Part shown: positions 1,817 through 29,628 of the stretch, one piece after another | How positions within the stretch are numbered: position 1 is the stretch's first letter | Layout of the letters: every line of letters starts with the position of its first letter | IMG/VR virus record: IMGVR_UViG_3300041432_000057 | Coordinates: 1-32,708 of that record | Direction: 5' to 3' (one strand) | Origin: a virus | DNA: 32,708 bases | Notes under the pieces: generated by a model | Seen by the model: only the letters and a program-made list of their open reading frames with translations | Told to the model about the DNA's origin: nothing | Databases searched by the model: none | Position numbers and translations under genes: made by a program

Positions 1817-3190
1817 TTATTCTGTCTCAGCTTCTTCCGTTGGCGCTTGGATTTTGGCTAAGTCTGCAAGATATTTTTGTTGCTTCTCAGGAGTCCAATT
1901 CACTCTTTGATAAGTTGTTGGAGCGGCTTGTTGGGTAGTTGGTTGAACTGCTTGGGGAGTTGGTTGAACTGCTTGAGGAGATTGTTGTGCTTGTTGCTTT
2001 GCTTTAACACCAGCACCAACTTGAACTTCAACATCATTTATACCTTGTTCGGCGGCAGCAATTACTGTTTTCAATACATCTAACGCTTTTACTTCGTCGC
2101 CAACTTCATCGCCAAAGATAGACACGAACGGTGATTTTACTTTTGACCACCATGCGCTTTCTTGCGGCGCATATTCGCCAGACTTTGCGTTTGTCAAAAA
2201 GATCTCCATATCTTTGCTCAATGCTTGCAACTCAGATTTATATATTGTTCCAACATTATGAGCTTCTTGTTTTGATTCTTGCGATTGATCGTTTTCGTGC
2301 ATCTTATCAACTACTTGTGAATATTGGCTAGCAGACTGAATAATATGTGCTAAAGCACCATCCAATTTTATTAAAAATGTATCTTTTGGTCTATCTTTTA
2401 TAATATCTGACAATTGATCTTTGGCAAGTTGAGCGTTGATGGCAACATTTTTTGCTTGAGGAGACGTTTTCCATATTGCCGATGCAATGCCACTAAGTGC
2501 TGCACCAGCCATAGCACCTCCCTGCATACCAGCCCACACTCCAAAAGGCCCACCTAAAGCTCCAATAAGACCACCAACTGTGCCTCCAATCAAAGCACCT
2601 GAGCCTGCGCCTCCTGCTACGTCAGCAGCATCTTCGCCAGCATTTTCAAGCGAATTCATAAAACCTTTCCCTAGCTTATTTGCTGGTGCTGCTGGTGCTG
2701 TGGCTGCATCTTGAGATTTCTTTTTCAATTGGCGGGTGCACACGTCTGCGAGAATTCTAAACTCATCTTGTTTGAGATTGTCCATTTCAATAGCAGTTCT
2801 GATAAGGGCAGTTGCCAATTCAGCTTCGGCATACTTCTTATAAGCGATATTGCCATTTGGCATTTTTCTCATAATGTTGATAATAATGTCTTGTCTTTCA
2901 TTTACGTTTTCAACGAGACTATTTACTTTATCATGAGAGTTGAAAAATATTACTGGTTCTGGATGAGCATTTTCAACAATGTTTCTTTTATATTCCATTC
3001 CTTCTGGCTTATCATTCTTCACATCGTAAAGCTTTGCAATATCTTCGACGGATAAAGAATCAAATCTTGGGTTTGTTTGATTCATTACTTCTGTTTTTGC
3101 AACTTTCTTTTCGGGCGCAGCTGTTTTAACCATGCCCTTTTGCAAAGCAATTTGTATATAGTTATCGAATATTTCGGAATTTTTTGCCAT
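1817..3190 (-). CDS. Putative internal/ejection virion protein with glycine-zipper segment (457 aa)
   Basis: I do not recognise the family. Residues 1-20 are an amphipathic leader ending in MVKTA (20-24), a motif shared with neighbouring proteins and possibly a maturation cleavage site. A helical region spans about 45-160. Residues 192-240 are a Gly/Ala-rich hydrophobic stretch with repeated GxxxG spacing (GGTVGGLIGALGG), typical of membrane-inserting glycine zippers. Another helical region follows, then a Gln/Pro/Ala-rich linker (about 398-430) and a short charged tail. Residues 75-120 resemble residues 95-145 of the 519-aa protein at 6813-8372 (HP[DE], then a helix ending in a K-x-P-x-G-x-x-A pattern). 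A channel-forming or ejected internal protein is inference from these traits. It is the last gene of the five-gene block. Confidence 0.75.
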   Translation of the reverse strand: MAKNSEIFDNYIQIALQKGMVKTAAPEKKVAKTEVMNQTNPRFDSLSVEDIAKLYDVKNDKPEGMEYKRNIVENAHPEPVIFFNSHDKVNSLVENVNERQDIIINIMRKMPNGNIAYKKYAEAELATALIRTAIEMDNLKQDEFRILADVCTRQLKKKSQDAATAPAAPANKLGKGFMNSLENAGEDAADVAGGAGSGALIGGTVGGLIGALGGPFGVWAGMQGGAMAGAALSGIASAIWKTSPQAKNVAINAQLAKDQLSDIIKDRPKDTFLIKLDGALAHIIQSASQYSQVVDKMHENDQSQESKQEAHNVGTIYKSELQALSKDMEIFLTNAKSGEYAPQESAWWSKVKSPFVSIFGDEVGDEVKALDVLKTVIAAAEQGINDVEVQVGAGVKAKQQAQQSPQAVQPTPQAVQPTTQQAAPTTYQRVNWTPEKQQKYLADLAKIQAPTEEAETE

Positions 3191-6812: not shown

Positions 6813-8372
6813 TTATGCCTTCAAAGCTTTGGCAGCAAATTGAGAAAGATTTTGCTTTGCAGAATTTAGTTTTTGTATGAATACATCTGCGCCGGCTTCC
6901 TTGTTAGGGCCCAAATTATTGAAAGCATCTTGTTGATCTGACACATATTTATTTATAGAATCTAAATATTGAAGCATTTTAGCGGCGTTTGGTGCTTGTT
7001 GAGACTTTACTTTTACTGTATAGTTATTTACATCTTGTTTGATTTCATTAGCTAATTGTAAAATTTGAGATGAACCTTTGCCGCCGGAAGATGATTCAGA
7101 TTTCGCTTCAACTCCTGCCGCAATTTTTTGTAATACATCCATGACGGGAGCCATCTTTTTATCACAGACGTCTATAACATTTTGTGCTGATATACGTATG
7201 TTGCGTATTGAAGCGCCAAGAGGTACATATGTGTTGACAACATCCCTAACATTAGAGAACCCAGTTTGTTTATCAATCATTGCTAGTGCATGATCATTTA
7301 TGGTAAATGCTACTTCTCTACAATTACTCACAGCTTGGATAAATTCGTTGATAGCTGGAAATGCTTCGGCTGGTGGACTTTTAGAATCCATTTGTGTGGC
7401 TTTTTCGGCTGCATTTTTTTGTAATTCTGAATTTTTCTTCAATTCATCGATAGCTGATGCCATCTTTGTATTTACAAAATCTTCCATGCCTGGACCAGAT
7501 CTGCTTATCTCATTTAATAATCCATCGGCAGCTTCTTTTATTTCGGTAGCACCAAATTCTGTTTCAAATAGATAATTGGCAACTTTATCACCAGCAACTA
7601 ATCCTACGATAACTGCGCCTATTAGTGGTAAAAATGATGCTGCTTCAGTGGCGGCAGCTCCTGCGGCTGCTTCACCACCTTCAGCAACTTCACCTGCTTT
7701 AGCACCAGTATCTGCCAATTCAATAGTAGATGGCTTATTTACAATATTTTTTCCAGCGTTCCAAATTCTAGAAACTAATGCTTTTCCAGCGGCTCCTAAC
7801 CCAGTTGTGGCAACTGCTTTGGCAGCATTGCCCTCATAGTCTTTTAAACCTTGAGCAAGCACCACCTTCACAGCATTGATAGCTAATGCGTTATTCATTT
7901 TACCGGCAGACTTCACTTTGTCCGCCATCTTTTTTGCCATGGCCAATTTGCCCGTTGGCTCTTTAGCAATCATATTTTTTATTGCTTTTTGCTTGTCGAT
8001 GATAGTTTCAATCATCGCATCGCCTTCAACATCTTTCATTTGATGGCTGCCATCAGGATGAGCAAAATTTATTACGTCATCACCGGTCTCGCCATGGGCG
8101 TCATATAAATGAACGGCTTTCTTCATTATGAAAAATTTTTCTTCAATTTCAACAGCGTTCTTTACGAATCCCTTTTCACGAAGAGCTGCGCACAATTTTA
8201 GAATGTTTTCTTCCAAATTTGGACCGGGCGTTAACTTTGATTGAACGATTTTTTTATTTACGCTTGCAACCTTTGTGATTGATTCAGGAGTTATAATGCC
8301 CTTTTTCACAGCAAGATTTGCGAAAGATCTCATTGTTGAAGATTGGTCAAACGGAATATTCTTATAGGTCAT
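6813..8372 (-). CDS. Putative internal/ejection virion protein with hydrophobic core segment (519 aa)
   Basis: First gene of the five-gene block, with GAGG 8 nt before the ATG. The N-terminal 37 residues lead to ITKVAS (32-37), the shared [KR]-[TIV]-A motif. Residues 60-75 carry the recurring LREKGFVKNA helix-turn-helix-like element. Residues 95-145 resemble residues 75-120 of the 457-aa protein. Residues about 186-266 are rich in Ala and Gly and include a hydrophobic stretch (FLPLIGAVIVGLVAG) long enough to cross a membrane. The rest is helical, with a Ser/Gly linker near 425. Membrane-active internal virion protein is the best guess from composition and context. An upstream 19-codon ORF overlaps its start (see 8369-8428). 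Confidence 0.75.
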   Translation of the reverse strand: MTYKNIPFDQSSTMRSFANLAVKKGIITPESITKVASVNKKIVQSKLTPGPNLEENILKLCAALREKGFVKNAVEIEEKFFIMKKAVHLYDAHGETGDDVINFAHPDGSHQMKDVEGDAMIETIIDKQKAIKNMIAKEPTGKLAMAKKMADKVKSAGKMNNALAINAVKVVLAQGLKDYEGNAAKAVATTGLGAAGKALVSRIWNAGKNIVNKPSTIELADTGAKAGEVAEGGEAAAGAAATEAASFLPLIGAVIVGLVAGDKVANYLFETEFGATEIKEAADGLLNEISRSGPGMEDFVNTKMASAIDELKKNSELQKNAAEKATQMDSKSPPAEAFPAINEFIQAVSNCREVAFTINDHALAMIDKQTGFSNVRDVVNTYVPLGASIRNIRISAQNVIDVCDKKMAPVMDVLQKIAAGVEAKSESSSGGKGSSQILQLANEIKQDVNNYTVKVKSQQAPNAAKMLQYLDSINKYVSDQQDAFNNLGPNKEAGADVFIQKLNSAKQNLSQFAAKALKA

Positions 8373-8525: not shown

Positions 8526-9221
8526 CTAAAACCACATGGCCTCCAATAAAGTATTCATTGATGTAGGAGGCCCTGTTACCATGGCTACAGCAGGGTGAAT
8601 TGGACTAGGTTTGCGTGTTGTAAACAAACCTGTCTCACTGCAATATAAATTGGCTTTTACGGGATACACAACGTTTGTTTCCATTTGGTCGGTTTGAAAA
8701 AACATTCTATTATACCACACCGTCATACGACCAGAGCCAATCGTAGAGTTGTCGCCAGGAATGTTTGGCACCTGATATGTATAATTTACAATCGTTCTCA
8801 CGCCATTTGGATAACCAGTTCCAAGTAAATCTACGTTTAGAGGTGTGCCAGCAAGAAATACAACTATGCCATTTCTTGGAATTAGTTGAACTTCAACGGT
8901 TGATATGAAAGAATTTTTCGCAATGTTTGCATGTTGCAATTCTACTTTTATATCGGTTGGTGTAACCCATTGTCCTGGCAATTGTCCTGGAACTGGATTT
9001 GGGACAACAACTTTTACAGTTTCATTCCAAGATACTGCACTAAATGCTTTGGTGTTGATGTCATCAATAATGCCTATTGGCGCTGTGCCATTGCTGACCG
9101 TGGCCACAATTTGATTGCCAAGAACAGTTAGCTCTGCACACATTCCTGGCATGAATTCGGCGCTAGGATCGACTGGCCAGCTATATGGGAGTGCGTTGCC
9201 AACCTGGAGTAATCTCAGCAT
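8526..9221 (-). CDS. Probable major virion structural protein (231 aa), capsid/decoration type
   Basis: The 231-residue protein has low charge and is rich in Val, Thr, Pro, Asn and Gly, with beta-strand alternation throughout and no signal or membrane segment. Its middle (APIGIIDDINTKAF) is reminiscent of small capsid-decoration proteins, but this is weak. The C-terminal third resembles the 232-residue product of 621-1319. It lies two genes after the protease/scaffold, the usual place of a decoration protein or major capsid protein; it is shorter than most HK97-fold capsid proteins, so I do not call it one. The ATG has no SD of its own and overlaps the stop of a 20-codon ORF with a strong SD, which suggests coupled translation. 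Confidence 0.75.
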   Translation of the reverse strand: MLRLLQVGNALPYSWPVDPSAEFMPGMCAELTVLGNQIVATVSNGTAPIGIIDDINTKAFSAVSWNETVKVVVPNPVPGQLPGQWVTPTDIKVELQHANIAKNSFISTVEVQLIPRNGIVVFLAGTPLNVDLLGTGYPNGVRTIVNYTYQVPNIPGDNSTIGSGRMTVWYNRMFFQTDQMETNVVYPVKANLYCSETGLFTTRKPSPIHPAVAMVTGPPTSMNTLLEAMWF

Positions 9222-9342: not shown

Positions 9343-9368
9343 AAAAAAGGCGAGAAATAATTCTCGCC
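9343..9368 (-). terminator. Rho-independent terminator downstream of the frameshift gene
   Basis: GGCGAGAA (9349-9356) pairs perfectly with TTCTCGCC (9361-9368) around a 4-nt loop; on the minus strand the stem is followed by TTTTTT. It begins 7 bp after the TAA that closes the -1 frame (9375), not the zero-frame stop at 9572, which supports the longer reading of that gene. It separates the upstream late genes from the 231-aa structural unit. Confidence 0.92.
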
Positions 9369-9374
9369 GATTTC

Positions 9375-9584
9375 TTAATCTTCCTCTTCAAATGTTTCAT
9401 CTGATGCTTGCGGAGGCTTATTAGGTAAATTCTCGCCTATATCTGCATTCAACAAATCATTTATATAATTTTTATCATCAACGTGATAATCGAACGGTGT
9501 GCCTGTATGCTTTAGATTTTCCACCATTTTCTTTGGTGTTAGTCCGTACGTATAAGGATCTCTTTTAGGTTTTAGACTTTTTTT
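9375..9584 (-). CDS. -1 frame extension of the gene at 9572-10024
   Basis: This frame opens right after a TAA at 9587-9585 and lacks a start with an SD. It overlaps the end of the upstream gene at an A9 run (9586-9578 on the minus strand) and runs 67 codons past the run to a TAA directly before the terminator. The sequence looks coding: KRDPYTYGLTPKK, then mixed residues and an acidic tail FEEED. Slipping one base back on AAA AAA AAA would join 149 residues of the upstream frame to these 67, giving 216 residues. Possible causes are programmed ribosomal frameshifting, polymerase slippage on A9, or a one-base error in the sequence. Confidence 0.65.
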   Translation of the reverse strand, partial: KKSLKPKRDPYTYGLTPKKMVENLKHTGTPFDYHVDDKNYINDLLNADIGENLPNKPPQASDETFEEED

Positions 9585-10024
9585 TTATCTTTTGCAATTT
9601 TTTCGGCGATTGATCTAATAGTTGCATATTCCGCAGTATCATGAATATTGACTTGCTTTGCAATTTTTGTTGCTTCAAGTCCCTTATCTACAACTGGATT
9701 TGGAGTGATGCTTTGCTCTAAAATTTCTTGAGGAGGCTCAATAATTATTTCAGGCTCTTTTACTTCGTCCAATTCTTCGGCGGTGACAACCATTTTTAAT
9801 GGCTTACCATCTGCAAGGCTTTGTAGAATAACACCAAGAGCATCTGCATGCGCGACAAATCCTGTTCTATCAAGAATTTCAGCAGCAGCGTCAAGATAAT
9901 CAGCTACTTTTGATAATTTCTCAAAACTATACTTATTCTCCAATTGATTGCCGTATAACTCTTTTCTCATATTGGAAGCGAGTTCGGCTTCAAAAGAACC
10001 GATTTTGAACATGCTTGTGCCCAT
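9572..10024 (-). CDS. Unknown helical protein (150 aa), probably extended by -1 frameshift
   Basis: TTAGGA lies 5 nt before the ATG. The zero frame gives 150 residues: a helical N-terminal half containing KLSKVADYLDAAAE and the recurring LDRTGF..ADALGVILQSLAD hairpin-like element, then an acidic Pro/Glu-rich linker around 85-110 and a Lys-rich end (KDKKKV). The stop follows immediately after an A9 run; see the extension at 9375-9584. It lies 10 bp after the polyampholyte gene and ends before a terminator. No family was recognised. By position it could be a head-completion or minor capsid protein, but nothing in the sequence tests this. Confidence 0.7.
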   Translation of the reverse strand: MGTSMFKIGSFEAELASNMRKELYGNQLENKYSFEKLSKVADYLDAAAEILDRTGFVAHADALGVILQSLADGKPLKMVVTAEELDEVKEPEIIIEPPQEILEQSITPNPVVDKGLEATKIAKQVNIHDTAEYATIRSIAEKIAKDKKKV

Positions 10025-10034
10025 TATTTCCTAA

Positions 10035-10859
10035 TTACTTCTTTTTTGCAAATGGATTTGGTTTCTTGTCAGATTTCTTATCAGACTTTTTGGAATCTTT
10101 TGAATCCTTCTTTTTGTCTTTTGCGGAATTGCTGTCGGTCTTTTTCTTGCTCTTCTTTGAATCTTTCTTTGAATCCTTCTTTTTCTTGGCTTCAACTACG
10201 AAAGAAGCAAGTTTGAGGCTGAAAGATGCTGACTTCTCAAATCCGATTGCGTCAAGAGCTGCTGATGCATTTACAAGATTTGCAATTGCGGTGTCAAGAG
10301 CTGCGGAAACATCGTCATCATCAGCAAGTGAGCAGTCTTCATCATCTGAATCTTTCTTGTGCTTTTTGGCATCGTTAGAATCTTCGTCGGATGACTTGTG
10401 TTTACGAGCGTCGTTGTCATCATCGGATGATTTATGCTTGCGCGCATCATTTGAATCTTCGTCAGATTCTTTCTTATGTTTACGAGCATCATTGTCATCA
10501 TCAGAAGACTTGTGCTTACGTGCATCGTTAGAATCTTCGTCCGAATCTTTCTTGTGCTTGCGCGCATCGTTCTCGTCGTCAGATTCTTTCTTGTGTTTCT
10601 TTGCATCGTTAGAATCTTCATCAGAAGACTTGTGCTTTTTTGCATCATTAGAATCTTCATCAGATTCTTTCTTGTGTTTTTTAGCGTCATTGCTGTCGCA
10701 TTCACAAGGAGCACATTCGCACTTTGAGCACTTCTTTTTCTTTGCATCATTGTCGTCTTCCGCAATGACATAGTCTTTACGGAATAATGATACATTTTCA
10801 TCGCTGTTAAGTCTAGCAAACATTTCTGCTGCCATTGAATCGCCAAAATTATTTTTCAT
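10035..10859 (-). CDS. Repetitive Lys/Asp/Ser polyampholyte protein with Cys cluster (274 aa)
   Basis: AAGGA precedes the ATG at 11 nt. Layout: a normal N-terminus (1-35); a Cys cluster CSKCECAPCEC (44-54) that could bind zinc; nine copies of NDA(K/R)KHK separated by Ser/Asp/Glu stretches (57-168); a short hydrophobic helical segment (185-225) containing the AIGFEKSASFSLKLASF element found in other virion genes here; and a C-terminal tail of about 50 residues made almost only of Lys, Ser and Asp. The tail resembles histone H1-like tails in composition, and the repeats alternate basic and acidic blocks. DNA condensation inside the head or a disordered core protein are possible roles. It directly follows the protease/scaffold gene, which supports a head function. 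Confidence 0.75.
   Translation of the reverse strand: MKNNFGDSMAAEMFARLNSDENVSLFRKDYVIAEDDNDAKKKKCSKCECAPCECDSNDAKKHKKESDEDSNDAKKHKSSDEDSNDAKKHKKESDDENDARKHKKDSDEDSNDARKHKSSDDDNDARKHKKESDEDSNDARKHKSSDDDNDARKHKSSDEDSNDAKKHKKDSDDEDCSLADDDDVSAALDTAIANLVNASAALDAIGFEKSASFSLKLASFVVEAKKKKDSKKDSKKSKKKTDSNSAKDKKKDSKDSKKSDKKSDKKPNPFAKKK
10356..10691 (-). repeat. Nine imperfect ~39-bp in-frame tandem repeats
   Basis: Each unit encodes NDA(K/R)KHK plus a variable acidic/Ser spacer; unit starts are 12-14 codons apart (residues 57, 71, 84, 97, 111, 123, 137, 149, 162). Unit lengths always differ by whole codons, so the frame is kept, and synonymous codons vary between copies. This is protein-level repetition and not a CRISPR array. 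Confidence 0.9.
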
Positions 10860-10894: not shown

Positions 10895-13234
10895 TTAGAA
10901 TTGACGGCTTCTAGAATTGCCGGAAAATGCTTGAGCAAGTAGCGATGCTAAATCTTCTGATTCTGTTGCACCAGAAGAATGATTATCGCTTACTCCGAGT
11001 ATTCCAACTTGTGGCATACGTCCAGCTGTTTTGACTACTGGCTTTTGTGAAGCAATTACTTTTCTAACCGATTCGAAACTTGCATCGTTCCAGCTCATGA
11101 TTTCATCAACTTGATTTGAAATTGAAGTTCTGTCGCGGGCAATCAATTCACGATCTGCCATTTCATATGCGAGTTCATTGGCTCTTGCGAGTTTGACTCT
11201 GTATTGTGCCATCTCTTCTTCTGCTTGAGCTTTAGCATGATCCTTTACAAGTTCAGTAGCGAATTGTGAGCCTTCTGGACCCATTTCACCGTAGAATTGT
11301 TTCCAGTACTTGATAGCTGCTGGGTCAACACCATTAGCAACTAAAATGTCCATGTCTGCTGGGTCAAGTTCACCAGATACTACAAGAGAGTTAATTGCCT
11401 CTGCTTGTTTCTTAGCATGTGATGGTGTGTTGGCAACATCCAACATTGATTCGTGAATTTCTTCAACTGTTTCAACGTGCCCACCATTATCTGATGGTTT
11501 GACATCGAATGTTGGATCTTCAAGATGCTTATGGAAGTCATTGAGTACTGGATTCCATTTCATTTCTGCAGCGATTTTTGCTCTTTCTGCATCGCGTCCA
11601 GCTCTTGTTGTGGTGTCAAGAGAAGCTACGTGAACATCAAGTCCCTTTGTAGCAAGTTCTTGTGCCTTCATAGGATCTTCTGTGGTGACATTTCCTGCGT
11701 CATTTGAATCAGGAGTTTCTTCGGTTGAATCATCTTCTGAATCATTGAAGTCTGGTTGATCCATATCTTCTGCTAACATTGCGTCGAATGCATCTGTGGC
11801 TGACATGTTTGAGTCAACCATAGCCATAAGGCTATCGTCCTTGTGTGCCATTGTATCATCTCCATGTGCCTTATCTGCTAGGGCTGCTTCTTGAGCGCGT
11901 TTCACGACAAGCTTTGTACCACGTGCGTATTTGACAAACGCACCGACCAATTCAAGCGATTTAGCAATTGCTTCTTTCGCTTCGACAATTGATTCGTCAA
12001 CAAGACCATTTACTAAAGACTTGTTTTCGGCTGTTACTTTGCCTAATTCATACATGCTCACGATGTCTCTGAGTTCTTTTTCGTGGGCAGTAAGTGTTTC
12101 GTGTGATTCTTTTACGGCTTCTAAAAGCATGCCGTTCAATTCTTTGCGAGCGCCGAGCATTGCTGCTGTGCTGACTTTGCTGTCAGAAGAATCGGTGTCA
12201 TCAGCGTGCATAGCGCCAACGTCGCCCATTTCTTTTTGTTCGCCAGTAAGCTCTTTGATGGTGTCGTTTAGATCTGATATAACGGCTACTGCCTTATCAG
12301 CTAGATCAAGCGCCTTCTCTTTTGGATCGCCATCTTTCTTATCATCGCCTGCTGCATCTGGTGTAGTAGGATCTGCTGGTGGAAGAGCTGGAGGAGCACC
12401 TGGACCATCAGCTGGTGGTGGTGGAGTTGGTGGCATACCTGCATCTTGTGCCTTCTTTGCAAAGCCTTCTGCAACTTTTTCAACGCCTAACTTTCTAACT
12501 TTGTTGATAAGGTCGGTAGCAAATTCTTTGGTGTAAACACCAGCGAAGAGTGCTTCTGCATTGCCTGCGGTAATATCATTTACCGAAGCTGAAAGAATTC
12601 GTTTGTCTCCGGAAAAAACTTCCCATGTGCATTTGCCATGGTCGAGGGTGCCGTCAGCTTTTGCAGCCTTGACGAATCTTGCTTTGAGAGATGCTCTTTG
12701 TAGCATTTCTTTGCGCTTGAGTTCATCCTTTTGATCGGCTGATTCTGGAGATGGGTGCAATCCTTCTGGGTCGCCTACGCCTGGAAATGGTTTTTGTCCA
12801 ACCATTTGTTTATCTTCTTTATCACGATCATGCTCTTGAAGCTTGTCAACTGGATATTTTTGCTTACCAGGAGTTGGCTCGTTTTCTTCGCCGCCACCTT
12901 GGAAATAAGCTTCTTTGATTTTGCCAAGTCTTGTTTTCACAGCTTCGGCAGTTGATTGACGTTTGAGAGCGCGTTGTTCTGCTTCTGCACGAGCAAGCAT
13001 CTTCTTACGTTCAAGTTCGCCTTTATCGAATGACTCGTAGCCTGGATACATACCATCTACTGGGCCAACGTCTGGAAATGGAGATTGTCCAACCATTTGC
13101 TTATCTTCTTTGTCGCGAAGATGATCTTGAAGTGGATCTTTCTCATATTTTATTTGCCCTGGTGTTGGCTCGTTTACTCCGCCTGCACCTTGAAAATACG
13201 CTTTCTTGTTGATGTTATCCTTATTTCCAGCCAT
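10895..13234 (-). CDS. Nested scaffold from an internal start in the protease gene (779 aa)
   Basis: Inside the protease gene, ATG at 13234 (residue 405) is preceded by AAGAGG with 5-nt spacing, a better site than that of the full-length gene. The point lies after a low-complexity linker and just before the duplicated AYFQG units, exactly where a protease-scaffold boundary would be. In lambda, scaffold Nu3 is made from an in-frame internal start in protease gene C; the same arrangement is inferred here. Confidence 0.5.
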   Translation of the reverse strand: MAGNKDNINKKAYFQGAGGVNEPTPGQIKYEKDPLQDHLRDKEDKQMVGQSPFPDVGPVDGMYPGYESFDKGELERKKMLARAEAEQRALKRQSTAEAVKTRLGKIKEAYFQGGGEENEPTPGKQKYPVDKLQEHDRDKEDKQMVGQKPFPGVGDPEGLHPSPESADQKDELKRKEMLQRASLKARFVKAAKADGTLDHGKCTWEVFSGDKRILSASVNDITAGNAEALFAGVYTKEFATDLINKVRKLGVEKVAEGFAKKAQDAGMPPTPPPPADGPGAPPALPPADPTTPDAAGDDKKDGDPKEKALDLADKAVAVISDLNDTIKELTGEQKEMGDVGAMHADDTDSSDSKVSTAAMLGARKELNGMLLEAVKESHETLTAHEKELRDIVSMYELGKVTAENKSLVNGLVDESIVEAKEAIAKSLELVGAFVKYARGTKLVVKRAQEAALADKAHGDDTMAHKDDSLMAMVDSNMSATDAFDAMLAEDMDQPDFNDSEDDSTEETPDSNDAGNVTTEDPMKAQELATKGLDVHVASLDTTTRAGRDAERAKIAAEMKWNPVLNDFHKHLEDPTFDVKPSDNGGHVETVEEIHESMLDVANTPSHAKKQAEAINSLVVSGELDPADMDILVANGVDPAAIKYWKQFYGEMGPEGSQFATELVKDHAKAQAEEEMAQYRVKLARANELAYEMADRELIARDRTSISNQVDEIMSWNDASFESVRKVIASQKPVVKTAGRMPQVGILGVSDNHSSGATESEDLASLLAQAFSGNSRSRQF

Positions 13235-14446
13235 AATTTCCTCTTGTTTATTTGAACCTGTAAATTGTTGTGCTAACTTCTCGAAATCTTTTTGCATTGA
13301 ATCTAATTTTGATTTTATGATAATCATTTGATCGTCTAATTGTTTCATTCCGCCTACTTCCATACGATCAGATGGAGGAGCAATGCTTTGATCAGTGCCA
13401 GGCATCTCACTTTCATTCATGGCTGGCGAGCTAGCCGTTTCTCCTAATGTCGAATCATTAGTAGTATTTTTAGAAAGATTTTCTTTATCTTCCGTTATTT
13501 TACGAAAATCTTCAAAAGCTTTCTCCACTTGGCTCTTCAAATCATCTATTGAAGATGATTCTAATGAAACACTGCCAGACTTGCCGCCTTCTTGTTTGTC
13601 TGGATCACTGAAATTAATTTGAATATTATATTTAAAATCAGCTAGCTTCTTGATTTCAGCTTCTTTTGAATCAATATATGAATTGAGAGTCTCGGCAGCA
13701 GCAATAACATCTTTTATTTTTGCTTGTGGGTCAGCACCGTTAACTACGATAGATAGTTCAATTGGATTGAGATCAATATTGATTTCACCATAACGGGTGC
13801 GGTTTCTCATGCATTTACAGAAATCTGCTTCAGATTTAGCCACTTGAGCACAATCTGAACAAATTGCTTTACCAACTGCAGTTCCCATACTAACTGAATT
13901 TGAATAGCCTGTTGCAACCTTTCTGGCCAAATCAGGATAATTGAATTTATCTAATGCGCATAATGCTATAACTCTTTTTGATTTACGATCATAATAAGTA
14001 TCAACAATAAAACCTCTGACATGATCTACTGAACTTGATTTATGGTCTATACATAACGGTTTTCCAACCCATTTCTTATACGCTTTGACAAGTTCTTCTT
14101 CTGGGAAAATATCGCCATTACTATTTTTGTACGGTTGTATGCTGCTATGGTTCGCCTTCCAACGCCACGTGCCACCAGATTTATCCCAATGGGCTTTTGC
14201 CACTTCGCCCTTTGCGGTCATCCTTGGTGTGCCGTCCTCATTTACTAACGAAGCTTCTGCGGCATGAATGATTACAGCTGAAAAATATAAAAAGTCCTCA
14301 GCCTTAGGGGCAATTCTTTTTAGCTTTTCTGCAAATTTAGAAAAATTTGCCATAACAGCTTGGTCAATCATTGGCTCTACTGAACTAAACTCTTCCATAC
14401 TGGAAGGTTGTATTTCTATAGCTTCGCCTAATTTTAGAAATGACAT
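10895..14446 (-). CDS. Prohead maturation protease fused to scaffold (1183 aa)
   Basis: The protease domain lies at about residues 50-250. CIDH (His135) and YSNSVSMGT (Ser186) look like the catalytic His and Ser of herpesvirus/HK97-type prohead proteases, followed by a Cys cluster (196, 199, 210, 212) resembling a zinc-finger insertion and then IELSIVVNGADP. Beyond 260 the protein is long, acidic, Gln/Glu/Ala-rich and helical, as scaffolds are. It includes a duplicated ~90-residue unit beginning AYFQG (416-597), a Pro-rich linker (about 675-700) and a C-terminal PVVKTAG motif. Codon 405 is an ATG with a strong SD, so a 779-residue scaffold may also be made. GGAG lies 11 nt before the main ATG. 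Protease-scaffold fusion agrees with the order TerL, portal, protease. The His/Ser assignment is by eye. Confidence 0.8.
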   Translation of the reverse strand: MSFLKLGEAIEIQPSSMEEFSSVEPMIDQAVMANFSKFAEKLKRIAPKAEDFLYFSAVIIHAAEASLVNEDGTPRMTAKGEVAKAHWDKSGGTWRWKANHSSIQPYKNSNGDIFPEEELVKAYKKWVGKPLCIDHKSSSVDHVRGFIVDTYYDRKSKRVIALCALDKFNYPDLARKVATGYSNSVSMGTAVGKAICSDCAQVAKSEADFCKCMRNRTRYGEINIDLNPIELSIVVNGADPQAKIKDVIAAAETLNSYIDSKEAEIKKLADFKYNIQINFSDPDKQEGGKSGSVSLESSSIDDLKSQVEKAFEDFRKITEDKENLSKNTTNDSTLGETASSPAMNESEMPGTDQSIAPPSDRMEVGGMKQLDDQMIIIKSKLDSMQKDFEKLAQQFTGSNKQEEIMAGNKDNINKKAYFQGAGGVNEPTPGQIKYEKDPLQDHLRDKEDKQMVGQSPFPDVGPVDGMYPGYESFDKGELERKKMLARAEAEQRALKRQSTAEAVKTRLGKIKEAYFQGGGEENEPTPGKQKYPVDKLQEHDRDKEDKQMVGQKPFPGVGDPEGLHPSPESADQKDELKRKEMLQRASLKARFVKAAKADGTLDHGKCTWEVFSGDKRILSASVNDITAGNAEALFAGVYTKEFATDLINKVRKLGVEKVAEGFAKKAQDAGMPPTPPPPADGPGAPPALPPADPTTPDAAGDDKKDGDPKEKALDLADKAVAVISDLNDTIKELTGEQKEMGDVGAMHADDTDSSDSKVSTAAMLGARKELNGMLLEAVKESHETLTAHEKELRDIVSMYELGKVTAENKSLVNGLVDESIVEAKEAIAKSLELVGAFVKYARGTKLVVKRAQEAALADKAHGDDTMAHKDDSLMAMVDSNMSATDAFDAMLAEDMDQPDFNDSEDDSTEETPDSNDAGNVTTEDPMKAQELATKGLDVHVASLDTTTRAGRDAERAKIAAEMKWNPVLNDFHKHLEDPTFDVKPSDNGGHVETVEEIHESMLDVANTPSHAKKQAEAINSLVVSGELDPADMDILVANGVDPAAIKYWKQFYGEMGPEGSQFATELVKDHAKAQAEEEMAQYRVKLARANELAYEMADRELIARDRTSISNQVDEIMSWNDASFESVRKVIASQKPVVKTAGRMPQVGILGVSDNHSSGATESEDLASLLAQAFSGNSRSRQF
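12656..13201 (-). repeat. Two-copy ~90-codon repeat in the scaffold region
   Basis: Residues 416-511 and 513-597 align along their length: AYFQG(A/G)G, then NEPTPG, then DRDKEDKQMVGQ(or LRDKEDKQMVGQ), PFP and a Lys/Glu-rich helix. The copies have diverged, so this is an old duplication. The conserved core suggests a binding module repeated along the scaffold. Confidence 0.75.
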
Positions 14447-15359: not shown

Positions 15360-16121
15360 TTAGGTTGAAACGTAGCCTCCACCATTATCAACTGGCGCAA
15401 CACCCTTTACTCCTGAATTATTGTCATAAAGCCCTACCAAAGGTATTTGATTTCCAGAAGATGGCGTCTTATCATTATAATCTTGTTTTGTTATTACATT
15501 CTCTCTTGTTGGAAACTGATCATAATTATAATTATAACCATATACATCATTTGGATCCATTAGCGGTGCGAAGCTTTTGAATTCAGAATTGCCAATCATA
15601 GTTTCGCTATCCCATCTTTCATTATTCACGATGTCGGCTGAATTGGTATCTTCATTACCTTTATGGTCGTGTTTTCTAGCACAGCATTTATGAATTATTT
15701 TTTCATATAACTTTACCGTTCTTGAGTCTAATCCAACGCCAAAACCTAAATGTTTAGCTTCTTTTATTGCCTTTGCGCATGGCCAGTACATGTATTGGCA
15801 CTTGAACATGGCTATCACCATTCCAGTTCTGTCTTTGCCTTCTAAGCAATGGACAAATGTTGGGCCATTCTTCATTAGTAAATTATATAAATTATAACTC
15901 AAAAGTTTTGCTATTGGCTCTAAATTGCTAAACTCAAGAGGAATAATTATATGCTCAATGCCTAATTTTTCGCATATTTCATTTATCTTATCGCCTGCGC
16001 CTTGGTCTAAGCTTACAATTTTATTTATTCCAAATTTCTTACGAAGAATGAAAACATCATCAACACCAGGTGCTCCACCACGATAAAGATCTTTGTTTAC
16101 GCGTATAAATCTTTTTATCAT
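15360..16121 (-). CDS. Tyrosine/dual-specificity protein phosphatase (253 aa)
   Basis: The first ~130 residues match the cysteine-phosphatase fold. LYRGGAPG (12-19) is the usual N-terminal signature, FGINKIVSLD (30-39) the next strand, and VHCLEGKDRTG (90-100) the CX5R P-loop with nucleophile Cys92 and Arg98. The general-acid loop is expected near IPLEFSN (60-66), where Glu63 stands instead of the usual Asp, so activity could be altered. The remaining ~110 residues are low-complexity, rich in Asn, Tyr, Asp and Gly, and end in GGGYVST; they look like a tether and not a catalytic domain. The start overlaps the upstream stop by 4 nt (ATGA). A phosphatase among virion genes is unusual; delivery with the particle is an inference. 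Confidence 0.85.
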   Translation of the reverse strand: MIKRFIRVNKDLYRGGAPGVDDVFILRKKFGINKIVSLDQGAGDKINEICEKLGIEHIIIPLEFSNLEPIAKLLSYNLYNLLMKNGPTFVHCLEGKDRTGMVIAMFKCQYMYWPCAKAIKEAKHLGFGVGLDSRTVKLYEKIIHKCCARKHDHKGNEDTNSADIVNNERWDSETMIGNSEFKSFAPLMDPNDVYGYNYNYDQFPTRENVITKQDYNDKTPSSGNQIPLVGLYDNNSGVKGVAPVDNGGGYVST

Positions 16122-19793: not shown

Positions 19794-22700
19794 TTATTTT
19801 GGTGGAGCGCCTGCTGGCGGAGTAGGTGGTGGAGGTGGCGGTCCTGCGCCTGGCGGTGGCCCTGGTGGTCCAGGAGGTGGGCCTCCTGAAGGTGGTGGCG
19901 GTAATGCTCCGAGACCTGGCAAGCCCATATCGGGTGGCGGTGGCATTCCGGGTGGTGCTCCACCTGGAGGAACTTCGCCAGGCACAAGATTTTCGCCCTG
20001 ACCATTCTGACCGGGAGGTGGTTTCACTTCTGGGATTTCATCATCATCTCCCAATGATCTAAGTTCTGGCAATGTCATTGCTGCAAGCGATGCCGCTTCT
20101 TTCTTATTGATTGCGGCTTGCTTTGCTTCCTTGCGAAGTTTTCTCACTTCATCTTCTTCTTCAAGACCGAGAGATCTATAGAGAGTAGCTGTTGAAACTC
20201 TTGGAGCAACTCCTTCACCTGCTGGAGCAGTCAATTGAACCAATGTGTTGATATAATCTCCCGCATCGAACAACGACATATGATTCCAATCAATATCAGG
20301 AACAATCAAATGTTTTTCTTGCTTTCCCGATGAGCCTTCTTTGAATTCATAAAAATCGTGAAATTTAGATATTGGAGCGAAAATTTTTCTCTTGAGCCAA
20401 GCAGATAAAATATTGCGGAATGACATGTAGCGTTGACGAAGAACGTCGAGGGCAACGCCACCGTTAGAATATGTCACGTCAGCCCCACCATCCATTAGCA
20501 CCGATGGCACCTGAAGCCCTACATAAATCTCTTTTACAAGTTGAGTTATATCTCCGCTTATATCATAAATACCTTGACCTGCGCCGACTCTTTCTATAGT
20601 GACACCGGGATGAGTAAATATTTTAAAATCTTTGTCGTACTGCGCACTGTTCGCTTGTACAGTGATTTTGCCTCCCCTCCTAGTAATAAATAATCCTGTA
20701 GGCACTTCAAAACACCAAACTTTGCCATCATACTTCTCTATTGTTAGTAAATTACGTTTCTCTTTTGTTTGACTATTTCTTGACGTTTTATAAACCAATG
20801 GGAATTTTCCTTTACCAGAATTTGACCATAACACGGTGTGTAATGGCACCCTAACATAATCTTCTCTATTGGTGTAATTTTCGCCATCTCTAACAAAACT
20901 TGTTGGCACTAAACCGCATTTATAAACAACTTCATAAACATCATCAGCCAATTGTTTAGAAGTAGAATAATACGCAAATCTATTTGATTTTTTATTTGGA
21001 TTCAAATACACTGAACCATCACCTTTTACAAGTGCATCAAGTAATATATTCAATAACCTAGTACTTAGGTTTAGCACCCAGCGAGGAATTTTTTTATAAT
21101 AAGATTTTGTTCGACCATCACTGTCGCCAACTTCTTTTACAAAATGGTCATATACATCTTTATTATTTATGGTTCCGCACCATACATCTTTCCAATTTTT
21201 ATTTATATGAGTTCTTTTAGAGGTTGTATTATAAACTTTTTTATCCAATATTTTAGCAAAATTATTTATACAATTGCTCATTTCTTGTTGAAATTTTTCA
21301 TATGTTTGATATATCCCAACACTATTACATTTGCCATTTGTAAAAACGCAACCTTCACTCAAAACATATCCCAAAAATTCTAAATACAACTCTATTGGGA
21401 TTTGTTTACCGCAAACATCGACAAATTTTACATCATCATTGCCTTCCCATTTTACTTGAGAACGCGTTCGATTATAATCTGTCATCTTTATGTCTTGCGC
21501 TTCGACTTTTTTCCACTCTCCCCACTTTGTTTTTCTCAAACTTCTGTGGCCATGATATTCATATTCTTTTCTTGAAACCCACATCTTATGATTTGGTGTG
21601 ACCTTTATATCCAATTTCTCATTTGCAAAATGATACATATCACCAGAATAATTATACACGCTAGCCCCTGTTGGCTCATGATACTCTAACTGTTCGTTGT
21701 TTGAATTGAAGCAAGCAATTTTCACACCGGCAATTGGTGCTACATGAGTAATATATGATGTATTATAAGTTCCATCCATAGCTTCGCTGAAACTAATTAC
21801 CTCGTCAAACTTCTTGAATCCTTCGGAAGTTAGCACCTCTGTTTCTTCGTCGTGGCATTCGAATACTTCGCGCCAATACTCAATGTCAGCATGAGAAGGG
21901 TGCAGCCCATCTTGGCCTTCTGAACCTATTTTTACGAGAGTTAGAGGGTTGATGAGATTGTCTGCCTGAGCGTATTTGGACTCTCTCAATTTGTCCATAA
22001 GCATCAACTGACGAAATATACACACCGGTAAACCAGTGCCCCTAACTTCATATGGCGCTATTTTTCTAGCAAGATGTGATACGTGAAAATTATCCAACAT
22101 AATATTCTTACCACGTTTTACAGAATCAATAATATGTTGGCTCAGTTGCTTTTTTTGCTCAATATCAGATGGCTTATTTGACCTAACTATATTTTGCAAA
22201 TTCAAGTCTGGCTTCAACATAATGATTGGCTCGCTAGCAACAACAGAACGATTCACAATCATATTGTCTGGATTTTGAATTATAATTCTGCTCCAAACAC
22301 CTTTTGCCGAATCAAATTCGGCATATGGAAAAGCTTCCCCAAGCAAGAAATATTCTTGTGCAATTTGAATGCAAACATTCATAAGATCAAGCTCTTCAGA
22401 CATATCGTTGAAGAAATTTTGAACCATTTGATTATGGCACTTGATTTGCAATTTGCTAATTGGATAAGTGCTATGAAGACTTATTGCGTTATGCACGAAT
22501 GGATTTAGAGCGAAAAATGCTCTGCACCACGCATTTATTGTGGCCCTATCGCGCGGTAGGTTTAGATTGCTCGACAACCACAATGGCGAATATACTTCTG
22601 GAATCTGCTTGATGGTATTGCCGGCTCCTCCGTACCCGTTGTGCATTCCTCCGCCGCCAGATAATACCTGTGCGTTCTTTTTGAATCCACCAACGCTGGC

Positions 22701-22922
22701 AGAAACTACTGAATTATAAGTAAGTCCCGTTTCACTGAAATTTGATCCGGTTCCATCTCTGAAAACACCGGCAACAACTTCATCTTGCAATATTTCTCTT
22801 CTTCTGTTTGACACTCCTTTAACCATTGAGGTGCTAACTAATGGGGCCATATCTCTATTTAGTAAATATTCGTTAGAGTATGACGAGCCTGGTGGAGGGG
22901 GATTTTTGAAATTTTTTTTCAT
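19794..22922 (-). CDS. Portal protein interrupted by an intein (1042-aa precursor)
   Basis: The start is set at 22922 because AAGG lies 8 nt upstream; the open frame extends 15 codons further but those lack an SD. Flanking the intein (residues 356-758) are portal-like segments: WCRAFFALNPFVHNAISLHS near 132-151, PYEVRGTGLPVCIFRQL near 290, and after the intein ISGDITQLVKEIYVGLQVP and the SNGGVALDVLRQRY region near 820. Removing the intein leaves 639 residues, a normal portal length. The C-terminus from about 965 is a strikingly Pro/Gly-rich tail (GPPPGPPGPPPGAGPPPPPP type). The portal forms the dodecameric ring through which DNA is packaged. The identification rests on these motifs and on adjacency to TerL. 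Confidence 0.85.
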   Translation of the reverse strand: MKKNFKNPPPPGSSYSNEYLLNRDMAPLVSTSMVKGVSNRRREILQDEVVAGVFRDGTGSNFSETGLTYNSVVSASVGGFKKNAQVLSGGGGMHNGYGGAGNTIKQIPEVYSPLWLSSNLNLPRDRATINAWCRAFFALNPFVHNAISLHSTYPISKLQIKCHNQMVQNFFNDMSEELDLMNVCIQIAQEYFLLGEAFPYAEFDSAKGVWSRIIIQNPDNMIVNRSVVASEPIIMLKPDLNLQNIVRSNKPSDIEQKKQLSQHIIDSVKRGKNIMLDNFHVSHLARKIAPYEVRGTGLPVCIFRQLMLMDKLRESKYAQADNLINPLTLVKIGSEGQDGLHPSHADIEYWREVFECHDEETEVLTSEGFKKFDEVISFSEAMDGTYNTSYITHVAPIAGVKIACFNSNNEQLEYHEPTGASVYNYSGDMYHFANEKLDIKVTPNHKMWVSRKEYEYHGHRSLRKTKWGEWKKVEAQDIKMTDYNRTRSQVKWEGNDDVKFVDVCGKQIPIELYLEFLGYVLSEGCVFTNGKCNSVGIYQTYEKFQQEMSNCINNFAKILDKKVYNTTSKRTHINKNWKDVWCGTINNKDVYDHFVKEVGDSDGRTKSYYKKIPRWVLNLSTRLLNILLDALVKGDGSVYLNPNKKSNRFAYYSTSKQLADDVYEVVYKCGLVPTSFVRDGENYTNREDYVRVPLHTVLWSNSGKGKFPLVYKTSRNSQTKEKRNLLTIEKYDGKVWCFEVPTGLFITRRGGKITVQANSAQYDKDFKIFTHPGVTIERVGAGQGIYDISGDITQLVKEIYVGLQVPSVLMDGGADVTYSNGGVALDVLRQRYMSFRNILSAWLKRKIFAPISKFHDFYEFKEGSSGKQEKHLIVPDIDWNHMSLFDAGDYINTLVQLTAPAGEGVAPRVSTATLYRSLGLEEEDEVRKLRKEAKQAAINKKEAASLAAMTLPELRSLGDDDEIPEVKPPPGQNGQGENLVPGEVPPGGAPPGMPPPPDMGLPGLGALPPPPSGGPPPGPPGPPPGAGPPPPPPTPPAGAPPK
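20649..21857 (-). mobile_element. LAGLIDADG homing-endonuclease intein in the portal gene (403 aa)
   Basis: The insert runs from Cys (codon 21857-21855) to Asn (20651-20649), followed by Ser+1. Block A is CHDEETEVLTSEGFKKFDEV; block B is VTPNHKMWV; the two LAGLIDADG helices are YLEFLGYVLSEG (21.4 kb) and LLDALVKGDGS (about 21.0 kb), with acidic residues at their ends as active-site candidates; block F/G is VWCFEVPTGLFITRRGGK then VQAN|S. The penultimate residue is Ala and not the usual His, as in some natural active inteins. Splicing would join ...WREVFE to SAQYDKDF.... The endonuclease appears intact, so homing may still be active. Confidence 0.93.
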
Positions 22923-22989
22923 TATATTACCTTGATCTATAATATGCTGCGATATTATATATATCAAAGCAAATACTAAAATTTCACAT

Positions 22990-26584: not shown

Positions 26585-26956
26585 TTATTTTTTCTTCTTA
26601 TCATCGACATAATGATTGTCAAGTCGTCCATAGTAAAGATTGGTTACAGGTTTAGCGTCAAGATCTTCTTGTGGATAGATTCCGTCCAACATTCCTAGCG
26701 GTCCGCATGGTTCTTCTGGGCTCCAAGGCATTTCCGTCACTTGGCTTTCTAGTGTATCTTGTAAATTATTTTTATCTGTATTTGGTTCTGCTGTAAGAAT
26801 TTCAAGCATAGCAAGTCTTCTTTTATTCATTTTCGCTTTTCTTTGTTTTTTACGAAAAGAAGCAAGATCCTTATATTTATCCATATTAGCGTAAAAGCCT
26901 TCGCCATAATCGAAGTTTCTTCGAAATACAATATTTTTTTGACCATTTTTATTCAT
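26585..26956 (-). CDS. Unknown small protein (123 aa)
   Basis: The start overlaps the upstream stop by 1 nt (TAATG) with AGG 7 nt before it. The N-terminal half is basic (RKKQRKAKMNKRR), the C-terminal half acidic/aromatic, ending KKKK. A segment near 80-97 (GPLGMLDGIYPQEDLD) recalls the GPVDGMYPGYESFD part of the scaffold repeat, which may be a shared binding motif or chance. Function unknown. Confidence 0.65.
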   Translation of the reverse strand: MNKNGQKNIVFRRNFDYGEGFYANMDKYKDLASFRKKQRKAKMNKRRLAMLEILTAEPNTDKNNLQDTLESQVTEMPWSPEEPCGPLGMLDGIYPQEDLDAKPVTNLYYGRLDNHYVDDKKKK

Positions 26957-27714
26957 TATTTACCTGTAATTCTTTTCATATAATACGGATATATTTCTTT
27001 TGTTATTGGAATTTGTTGCCATAAACCCATCTCATCTAATAAATAAGTAGTTCTTCTTGCGTTATAAATAAGTGCTTTATTTAGCTTTTCTGCAAGTGCC
27101 CTGTCTGAGGCAAACCTCATTGATTCTGGGTGTTCCTTTATCCAAGTCATAAGATTTGGATCGAGTTCGAAATTCAACTTAGCGGCAAGATAAATAGCTC
27201 TAACCACCCTATTTTTATTTGTAAGCAAAGTGACTTCTGGTGCTAAACAAGTTTTTATAACTTTTTCTTGAATATCTTTGAATCCACGATTTGTTGGGTC
27301 TGTAATAGTTTTCAAATCTAAACTCATAAGTAAAGCATTGCAAGTGAAATCTCTACTATATAATTCTCTTTGCATAGCAGTAGGATCTTCAATTCCAAGT
27401 TTTGCTAGGTATTTATCAATATTTGGAGCATTGAAGTTAGATGAGAAATCAACTTTGAATCCGCCTATAAAAATAGAACTATGACCATCATCCATTACTT
27501 TGGTGTCTATTTTGAATTTTTTATTCAAATAAATTGAAAGTTCTTTCGCTAAATTATGAATTGAATCATCACCAGTTGTAATATCCAGATCTTCAATTGA
27601 TTTTAGATTGCCAAGTAGCTTGTCGCGAGGAGTGCCTCCGACGATCATTGGGGTCGATATACCTTTGCGCTTAGCTATGCTGGTCATTAGCTTTAATAAT
27701 TCGCGAAGTTTCAT
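26956..27714 (-). CDS. Minimal CCA-adding/poly(A) polymerase-type nucleotidyltransferase (252 aa)
   Basis: The class II tRNA nucleotidyltransferase/poly(A) polymerase head domain is clear: IVGGTPRDKLLGN (24-36), EDLDITTGD with the catalytic DxD (Asp42, Asp44), a third carboxylate in FKVDF (Asp89), RDFTCNALLMSLD (121-133), and TDPTNRGFKDIQEKVIKT (138-155), followed by NRVVRAIYLAAKLNF (168-182), the usual nucleotide-recognition helix. Bacterial enzymes of this family are about 400 residues; this one ends after the neck region and lacks most of the body and tail that bind tRNA. Substrate (tRNA 3' end, other RNA, or none) cannot be told. AAGG precedes the ATG. Its place inside a virion gene cluster is unusual. 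Confidence 0.88.
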   Translation of the reverse strand: MKLRELLKLMTSIAKRKGISTPMIVGGTPRDKLLGNLKSIEDLDITTGDDSIHNLAKELSIYLNKKFKIDTKVMDDGHSSIFIGGFKVDFSSNFNAPNIDKYLAKLGIEDPTAMQRELYSRDFTCNALLMSLDLKTITDPTNRGFKDIQEKVIKTCLAPEVTLLTNKNRVVRAIYLAAKLNFELDPNLMTWIKEHPESMRFASDRALAEKLNKALIYNARRTTYLLDEMGLWQQIPITKEIYPYYMKRITGK

Positions 27715-27720
27715 GTTGCC

Positions 27721-29628
27721 TTATACTGCTGGCGGAGCCGCTGGTTTTGGAGTTGGTGGTGCTCCAGGAGTGCCCGTTTGAGCTGGTCCACCTAAATCTT
27801 CTTCCACCTCAAGTTCTGGCTCAGGTTTGGCGCCGCCTTGCTCAATTTGTGCGTCCTCTTGTTGCTTCTTCATTTGTTTTCTAGCTTTTTCTTTATCTTG
27901 GTCAGATTGAAGCTTGCCTTTTGCAGCCTCTACATCTGGAGAACCTGGCGCAACATTTTTCCCTTTGAGGTCAATGGCATTTGTTTTGGCAGAACCTTGT
28001 AATGCCGAAGAAATATTATCAAGACGAGTCAAAATATATTGATTAGAGTCAAGTGCTTTATTTGTGGCTTCTGCTAATTCTGGGAAATAGTTTGCCATAG
28101 ATAAATGTTTCAACATCAAATCAATAATAGATAATTGTCTCGGGATTTCTCTTGTTTTGAATATTTTAGATATATCTTCAACTTTTTCTATAACATCATT
28201 TATTGTTAATCCTTGAAATGCTTGTTCAAGTTTTTTATCAAATTCATTAACGTCAGAAACTTCAGGCACGTTTCCAGGTGCGTTATCTGGCTGTTCTTCA
28301 ACTTCTAAATCTGCTTCTGGCGCAGCTTTTGGCTTTGGAGTTGGTGCTTTAAGCGGCGGAGTAGGATTTGCAATTGGAGCGGCTTGAGCTTCAACAATCC
28401 AGCCATCCAAATTATTTTTTTGAAATTGACGAATCATAACATCAAGATTTGTTAAAGAGGCTTCAACTAACCAATCTTCGGCTTCATTTACTTCCAAATC
28501 ATCATCGTTCGATTCGTCGGTTGACTCATCTTCCTCACCTGAAAGACCATCAAGAAAACTTTTCATGCCTTCGCTAATTGGCTTTTCTATTTGCCCTGGT
28601 AGCTGAGGATTTGGAGGTGAATTGGTTGGAGGAGATGTTTGGCCAGGTCCTTGACCAGGAACTGCACCAGGCAAGCCTCCACCATCTGTCATTGGGTTTG
28701 CTGGCTCGGATGGAAGCGGCACCGTTGCCTTTGGAGCATCGCCTGCAACACCATCGGCAATTTTACATAAATATGCGGCAGCCTTTACAAATCCTTTTTT
28801 ATTTAGAATGTTAGCTTCGCGAACAATCATATCTTCATAAAGTTTAGTTGAAGAACTTTTCTTATTTACTGTGTGAATTTTCTTTTTCAATTCATAAATG
28901 ATGTGCATCAAAGTTTCGAATTCATTGCCAGCAAATGTTTGGCCATCTTCAGATCTCAATAATTTCTCGGCTGAATCTAATCTGCTTACAATTTTATTTC
29001 TTTGCTTCTCTATAAGAGATCTTTTTTCATCGTCTTGCACCATTTCATTGGTGGCTGGGTCTTTGGCAAAATCTATATCTTTGCCAATATTTTGCTCTTT
29101 ATGAACGGGAACGAAATATCCAGGGTTATGGTCATTTGTCCAATATCCAATTTGTGCAAGCTTTGTTTGCTTAGGAGTTTCTTTAGCCGCATCAGAATAT
29201 TTCTTATGTGCTCTTTCTTCGTAAAATTTGAACCAATTTTTGAAATCAAGCTTTTCCATTTCATCCCATCCAGATATAACTTTATTTAGTGCGGCACCCT
29301 TATCGTTGCCATTATGGACTAAATAATATAAATTTTTCACAGTAGCTACCCATTTAGATACATCTCTTGGAGCCTTATAACTAATGTATTCGTTGTAGTT
29401 TGGATAAGCCTTGGAAGACAAATCTTTTTTTGGCTTATAATCTTTTATTGATTTTTCGATGTCTTTTGCGTCATCAGTAGTTAGCCCATAATTAGAAAGA
29501 GTTTTGCTATCTTGCAATAATTTTTTTCTAATATTTTCTGGCAAGTCTTTTGGCAATTTGGATTTATTTTTTTCAAAAAATTCATTCATTGGCTCTTTTT
29601 CAAAAGTAATTAATTTTGGATTATACAT
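27721..29628 (-). CDS. Unknown large virion-type protein with Pro-rich linkers (635 aa)
   Basis: ATG 29628 is chosen because GAGG lies 6 nt before it; the frame has earlier ATGs at 29634 and 29640 without an SD. Residues about 1-260 are a charged helical region with an aromatic segment (WTNDHNPGYFVPVH). Near 271-293 is the recurring ILNKKGFVKAAAYLCKIAD element. A Pro/Gly linker (about 300-345), an acidic stretch, a helical domain, a second Pro/Ala linker (about 415-440), a helical domain, and a Glu/Pro-rich tail follow. No enzyme motif. The multi-domain, linker-joined layout suggests a structural or scaffold-like protein. Confidence 0.7.
   Translation of the reverse strand: MYNPKLITFEKEPMNEFFEKNKSKLPKDLPENIRKKLLQDSKTLSNYGLTTDDAKDIEKSIKDYKPKKDLSSKAYPNYNEYISYKAPRDVSKWVATVKNLYYLVHNGNDKGAALNKVISGWDEMEKLDFKNWFKFYEERAHKKYSDAAKETPKQTKLAQIGYWTNDHNPGYFVPVHKEQNIGKDIDFAKDPATNEMVQDDEKRSLIEKQRNKIVSRLDSAEKLLRSEDGQTFAGNEFETLMHIIYELKKKIHTVNKKSSSTKLYEDMIVREANILNKKGFVKAAAYLCKIADGVAGDAPKATVPLPSEPANPMTDGGGLPGAVPGQGPGQTSPPTNSPPNPQLPGQIEKPISEGMKSFLDGLSGEEDESTDESNDDDLEVNEAEDWLVEASLTNLDVMIRQFQKNNLDGWIVEAQAAPIANPTPPLKAPTPKPKAAPEADLEVEEQPDNAPGNVPEVSDVNEFDKKLEQAFQGLTINDVIEKVEDISKIFKTREIPRQLSIIDLMLKHLSMANYFPELAEATNKALDSNQYILTRLDNISSALQGSAKTNAIDLKGKNVAPGSPDVEAAKGKLQSDQDKEKARKQMKKQQEDAQIEQGGAKPEPELEVEEDLGGPAQTGTPGAPPTPKPAAPPAV

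Follow-up and report, generated by a model that had tools for sequence, protein, structure and literature searches.

Does the gene at 9572..10024 of this virus fragment end where its reading frame stops, or does the run of nine As next to that stop lead to a second, longer protein? The window, i.e. the whole 32.7-kb stretch of DNA analyzed, carries terminase, portal, head maturation protease and other head and tail genes. The initial annotation had proposed that -1 ribosomal or RNA polymerase slippage at the run gives a short and a long form of a virion gene, a label based on the position of the gene in the head module. Comparison with homologues supports slippage with two products.

The junction in the window and in related phages

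The short-form ORF (9572..10024, minus strand; 150 aa) consists of a helical N-terminal domain, of the type called A below, and a linker, and it ends in KKKV*. As had been noted, this 150-codon gene stops right after nine As: read directly, the run is exactly nine As long (9586..9578, minus strand), it is in codon phase (GAT AAA AAA AAA GTC TAA) and the 0-frame stop TAA (9572..9574, minus strand) lies one codon past it. The -1 frame is open from within the run to a TAA at 9377..9375, providing an extension of 67 codons plus stop (9375..9578, minus strand). The resulting fusion, a long form of 216 aa, can be reached by re-reading one A or via one extra A in the mRNA. A stop at the T just before the run blocks the -1 frame from upstream, indicating that a shift would be productive solely inside the run. 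An intrinsic terminator with a stem of 8 bp (9349..9368, minus strand) was confirmed beyond the -1 stop, although it starts 6 nt past that stop and not 7 bp as first annotated.

The 150-aa ORF had no match in PHROG, and the fusion protein had no significant match in Pfam and no tblastn match among 50,697 phage records, all in single-sequence searches. A direct search with the fused protein found no relatives either. Relatives were gathered via two adjacent genes, encoding a head maturation protease-like protein (10895..14446, minus strand; phrog_18299, E=1.1e-14) and a conserved, downstream 231-aa all-beta protein (8526..9221, minus strand), followed by alignments of the fusions and tails. All of the relatives are IMG/VR contigs, many of 200-480 kb, and the group is one of uncultured huge phages. 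One scan of a large collection of prokaryote genomes with the 231-aa protein yielded no confirmed relative, and the INPHARED phage records had no match to this protein or to a B-like consensus peptide; thus no host or cultured member of the group is known.

The layout of the window is kept in eight uncultured huge-phage lineages, its own included, each with NNT AAA AAA AAA in the 0 frame, a stop one to three codons on and the tail in the -1 frame. Besides the window, the junctions were GAT AAA AAA AAA ATC TAA in L015, GCT AAA AAA AAA GTT TAA in L016, AAT AAA AAA AAA GCG TAA in L003, GCT AAA AAA AAA GCA TAA in L072, TCT AAA AAA AAA GTT TAA in L102, TCT AAA AAA AAA GTC TAG in L151 and GAT AAA AAA AAA GTC CAA AAG TAG in L139. 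The run was A9 in seven of these single-gene lineages and A10 in one, and in five of the eight a terminator lies at most 6 nt past the -1 stop. In the A10 lineage, L015, an A replaces the G that elsewhere succeeds the nine As and the frame relation is the same, indicating that the run was lengthened by substitution and not by an indel.

The 67 codons that had looked coding in the window correspond to a tail conserved across the eight lineages. The conserved part (GLTPKKMVENLKHTGTPFDY...FEEED; 9378..9563, minus strand) is found in frame in 63 related lineages, and a profile built from in-frame tails only matched it with E=3.5e-14. Across the -1 tails the same kind of profile gave E values of 1e-11 to 1e-19 in seven lineages and 9e-4 in L102. 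Differences between the window and L015 tails fell 16/13/37 by codon position of the -1 frame (pN 0.22, pS 0.85). In the seven alignable tails dN was far below dS in the -1 frame, substitutions tracking its codons. These comparisons indicate that the -1 frame past the run encodes a conserved protein segment.

The main alternative named in the initial annotation was an error of one base in sequencing or assembly, which would make the gene an ordinary continuous one; homopolymers are indeed prone to such errors, and the contig comes from a metagenome. For the family, error is excluded by the conserved out-of-frame layout in eight diverged lineages, two of which are moreover identical in two separate assemblies each (L016/L017 and L003/L008); the substitution in L015, which kept the frame relation, also argues against it. 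We therefore give error practically no weight. The conserved homopolymer and both reading frames, which the annotation had suggested looking for in homologues, were kept in all eight lineages, and among the homologues none was found that lacked the run and ended at the 0-frame stop.

Alternatively, re-initiation after the 0-frame stop, which closely overlaps the -1 ORF, could allow the tail to be translated as a small gene of its own. In the window, however, there is no ATG, GTG or TTG in the -1 frame between the run and an ATG within the conserved tail motif. Independent initiation would therefore cut the domain. The same search in seven lineages showed no ATG, GTG or TTG before the motif, save for one TTG in L072 and another, well within the ORF, in L102; the first usable ATG again lay within the motif, where in-frame relatives do not initiate. 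Re-initiation is accordingly very improbable.

Tandem genes in relatives with the tail in frame

The remaining 63 lineages that have the tail encode it in frame, as the last part of a gene here called B (MIKKSVFEDELI...). In 61 of these 63, B is directly preceded by a short paralogue, A (MFKxxSFEDEI..NQLENK..), and the N-terminal domains of A and B are homologous (hhalign probability 99). The frameshift lineages (8/8) have a single gene with an A-type N-terminal domain, scoring 73-98 bits against A and 46-64 against B; the short form of the window scored 80.3 bits against the A profile and 49.3 against the B profile. As judged by these profiles, the 0-frame product would resemble A, and the shifted product would combine an A-type domain with the tail of B. 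The simplest reading is that slippage apparently substitutes for the A/B pair, one gene supplying what other phages get from two. A fourth layout was seen in two deeper relatives, L176 (2995-3663) and L177 (2992-3657), in which one gene carries the tail in frame without A9. The B protein was predicted, with low confidence (pLDDT 66), to form a helical hairpin followed by a largely disordered tail, as might suit an internal or assembly protein.

A tree of the 231-aa protein (78 rows, quick search), in which many forks are weakly supported, placed the frameshift lineages in one or two groups outside a large A+B clade (2 changes). These lineages are separated by long branches, indicating that the frameshift state is old. 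About 6 changes were required on this tree for the in-frame A9, and about 8 when both kinds of A9 were taken together, suggesting that A9 was gained or lost repeatedly.

Run length and the mechanism of slippage

The longest A run inside the tail or at most 150 nt upstream of it was determined in 71 distinct lineages. The distribution was bimodal: 51 lineages had a run of 0-7, none of 8, 19 of 9 and one of 10. The runs of nine were not confined to the frameshift lineages. A9 was also present ahead of the tail in twelve in-frame B genes and in all three codon phases, for example phase 0 in L005, L116 and L124, phase 1 in L022, L029, L085 and L094, and phase 2 in L035 and L048. At the ten in-frame runs that were read through, a one-base slip in either direction would end the protein within about 3-21 codons; the runs of L036 and L169, outside those ten, have the same context as L028/L089.

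Long A runs were rare elsewhere. On the coding strand of 86 non-redundant loci, runs of at least nine As numbered 18 in the A/B genes, 8 in a Lys-rich gene and 2 in other genes, a count for which the Lys-rich genes of L042, L050, L077, L102 and L011 had been moved by hand from the "other" class; there was no run of nine or more Ts on that strand. The 2 runs in genes outside the A/B and Lys-rich classes compare with 43 A8 runs in about 569 kb of coding DNA. The L094 record (480,838 bp) has one A9 over either strand, located at the tail site. Two were found in the L003 record (472,749 bp) and two in that of L017 (239 kb), one of them in each case at the slippery site, and the L022, L048, L005 and L151 records were similar. 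A 29-A run was observed in the L126 record (G021, 117927-117955), a 359-kb contig that otherwise has just two A9. Chance probabilities multiplied over lineages are merely indicative, since the lineages are related and not statistically independent. Taken as sequence evidence, these counts indicate that A9 is selected as a homopolymer length, whatever the phase.

A9 tracts are able to slip during replication, and the run length might change between phage generations and switch the tail on and off. Such phase variation is very improbable, given that the run is uniform in all 20 lineages that have it (nine As, or ten in one case via substitution) and that no member of the frameshift lineages was found with a single gene continuous through another run length. 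No near-identical contig with a run of different length turned up in a search that may miss near copies.

We consider it probable, on these comparisons, that the A9 run is a programmed RNA polymerase slippage site giving a short and a long form. Most transcripts, with nine As, would yield the 150-aa short form with its A-type helical domain. In a fraction of transcripts the polymerase would slip, adding one A or omitting two, and translation of these would pass the stop into the -1 frame and add the conserved acidic C-terminal tail, yielding the 216-aa long form. Together the two forms would stand in for the tandem A (no tail) and B (tail) proteins of related phages. The sequences themselves show the layout and its conservation, that the -1 frame is coding, how the forms correspond to A and B, and the selection for A9. 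Slippage at transcription rather than at translation, the ratio of the two forms and a role for them as internal head or assembly proteins are all inferred, the role from the position of the gene between those of the head protease and the 231-aa protein.

The same two products would arise by programmed -1 ribosomal frameshifting, through a tandem slip of Lys-tRNAs on A_AAA_AAA followed by translation of the -1 tail, and in all eight frameshift lineages that heptamer stands in the 0 frame, is read by two Lys codons and has a stop close behind. In phage T7 the major capsid gene 10A/10B has a -1 ribosomal frameshift at a heptamer site near its 3' end that gives a minor extended product; single-sequence searches detected no relation of it to the window protein. 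Every extension found goes in the -1 direction, including those of the Lys-rich gene (A_AAA_AAG or A_AAA_AAA), as also expected from a ribosomal slip, whereas a polymerase need not slip that way, and this counts against polymerase slippage. On the other hand, a heptamer requires seven bases, yet 19 of the 20 runs are exactly nine, one is ten and none is eight. What is constrained is a run of nine in any phase, rather than a heptamer in a fixed one, the in-frame homologues retaining A9 in all three. Furthermore, AAG makes up about 39% of the Lys codons in these loci, yet all eight lineages use AAA for the first Lys codon. A conserved stimulator was not found either: the frameshift sites share no upstream Shine-Dalgarno sequence and no conserved 3' fold, the z-scores of downstream folds ranging from 0.06 to -4.1. 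Some of these folds were better than shuffled sequence, that of L003 being the most stable (z -4.1). For these reasons polymerase slippage is preferred, and ribosomal frameshifting is left as a minority possibility with a modest share of the probability. Fifty-one lineages lack the run, which counts against its being necessary: phages with separate A and B genes can dispense with it.

Head-module neighbors, known systems and significance

The Lys/Asp/Ser-rich gene upstream (10035..10859, minus strand) is unshifted in the window. In seven lineages its homologue ends at A9/A10 plus a stop, followed by a -1 extension of 35-177 aa (L042 3269, L050 3280, L102 1120, L030 3129, L077 1060, L137 1091 and L011 8296). 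The L042 and L050 extensions share homology with one another, and in L027 a homologous segment forms the end of this gene in frame. Among the sequences compared, matches of the other five were confined to their own locus, and it is plausible that these too are coding.

Other features of the head module were also recorded. The 231-aa protein is possibly a capsid decoration (cement) protein, as judged from its structural model (pLDDT 86) and weak Foldseek matches to such proteins (best PDB E 0.03), and homing-endonuclease-like ORFs lie beside its gene in L157 (3431-4198), L159 (3560-4198), L005 (13316-14431) and L007 (11689-12507). In homologues of window 1817-3190, a third gene of the head module, an in-frame A9/A10 was seen in only four lineages among those readable: L180 (L048 record), L183 (L022), L185 (L124) and L186 (L035). 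There the run sits between an N-terminal domain and a hydrophobic stretch, and slippage would truncate the protein. The portal gene (window 19794-22967) contains an intein-like insert with a LAGLIDADG domain (LAGLIDADG_3, E=5.7e-9) and portal matches on both sides. Interspersed with the head-module genes are genes for a tyrosine-phosphatase-like protein and a tRNA nucleotidyltransferase (window 15360-16121 and 26956-27714). By eye, a short helical motif, L..AA.ILD..GF..A..L..IL..LA., is apparently shared by several head-module proteins (window 10035-10859, 9572-10024, 6813-8372 and 27721-29640).

Among bacterial slippage sites, A9 is a common length (PMC1088944). Slippage at A9 is counter-selected in many bacteria and exploited by Thermus dnaX (PMC1088944; PMC5009743). 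Poly-A cassettes shifted 10, 40 and 63% with 7, 9 and 11 As, values not tied to one mechanism (PMC3711429). As in the phage gene, Thermus thermophilus dnaX has an A9 on the sense strand at which transcriptional slippage gives a long and a short protein from one gene (PMC1088944; PMC5009743). The in-frame-A9 B genes have exactly this layout, with a long unslipped and a truncated slipped product (PMC5009743). Unlike Thermus dnaX, the phage genes also occur in the opposite arrangement, in which the unslipped product is short and the slipped one long, and as tandem genes, and they belong to a head module. Both layouts and both mechanisms are already described within the dnaX family (PMC5009743).

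In Citrobacter rodentium tssM1 a stop likewise follows a poly-A run, and inserted As restore the C-terminal domain and give two length variants, but the run is A11 in a type VI secretion gene (PMC4256274), whereas the present run is an A9 that a family of phages conserves. Transcriptional slippage adds a C-terminal extension to a fraction of the product of Shigella mxiE and spa13; these are bacterial secretion genes, for which the accessible portion of the source describes no tandem-gene alternative (PMC5009743). Phage lambda G/GT resembles the window gene in being a morphogenetic gene with a -1 shift near its 3' end and a minor extended product, but it is a tail gene and uses a ribosomal heptamer (PMC5009743), and no relation to the window protein was detected in single-sequence searches. 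IS elements also have an out-of-frame A9 with a fusion product in the shifted frame, in transposase and not virion genes (PMC1088944). A Campylobacter phage paper brings up slippage solely as a way in which a methyltransferase might be rescued (PMC2853527), and an open-literature search found no report of slippage sites in genes of the present phages. The type of site is thus known (A9 to A11 slippage in dnaX, tssM1, mxiE, spa13 and IS elements), and its present use appears to be new.

The odds are about even for the wider proposal that this huge-phage lineage uses A9 polymerase slippage as a general device of the head module, in which tandem genes, an in-frame truncating A9 and an out-of-frame extending A9 are interchangeable and the Lys-rich neighbor is extended likewise. 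For annotation, such genes of huge phages will be cut short and their tails missed. Gene duplication and recoding look like alternative solutions for one protein pair across some 70 lineages, which makes it possible to follow how a programmed slippage site evolves. Polymerase slippage, known in bacterial dnaX, IS elements and secretion genes, is suggested to set protein ratios in phage head assembly too.
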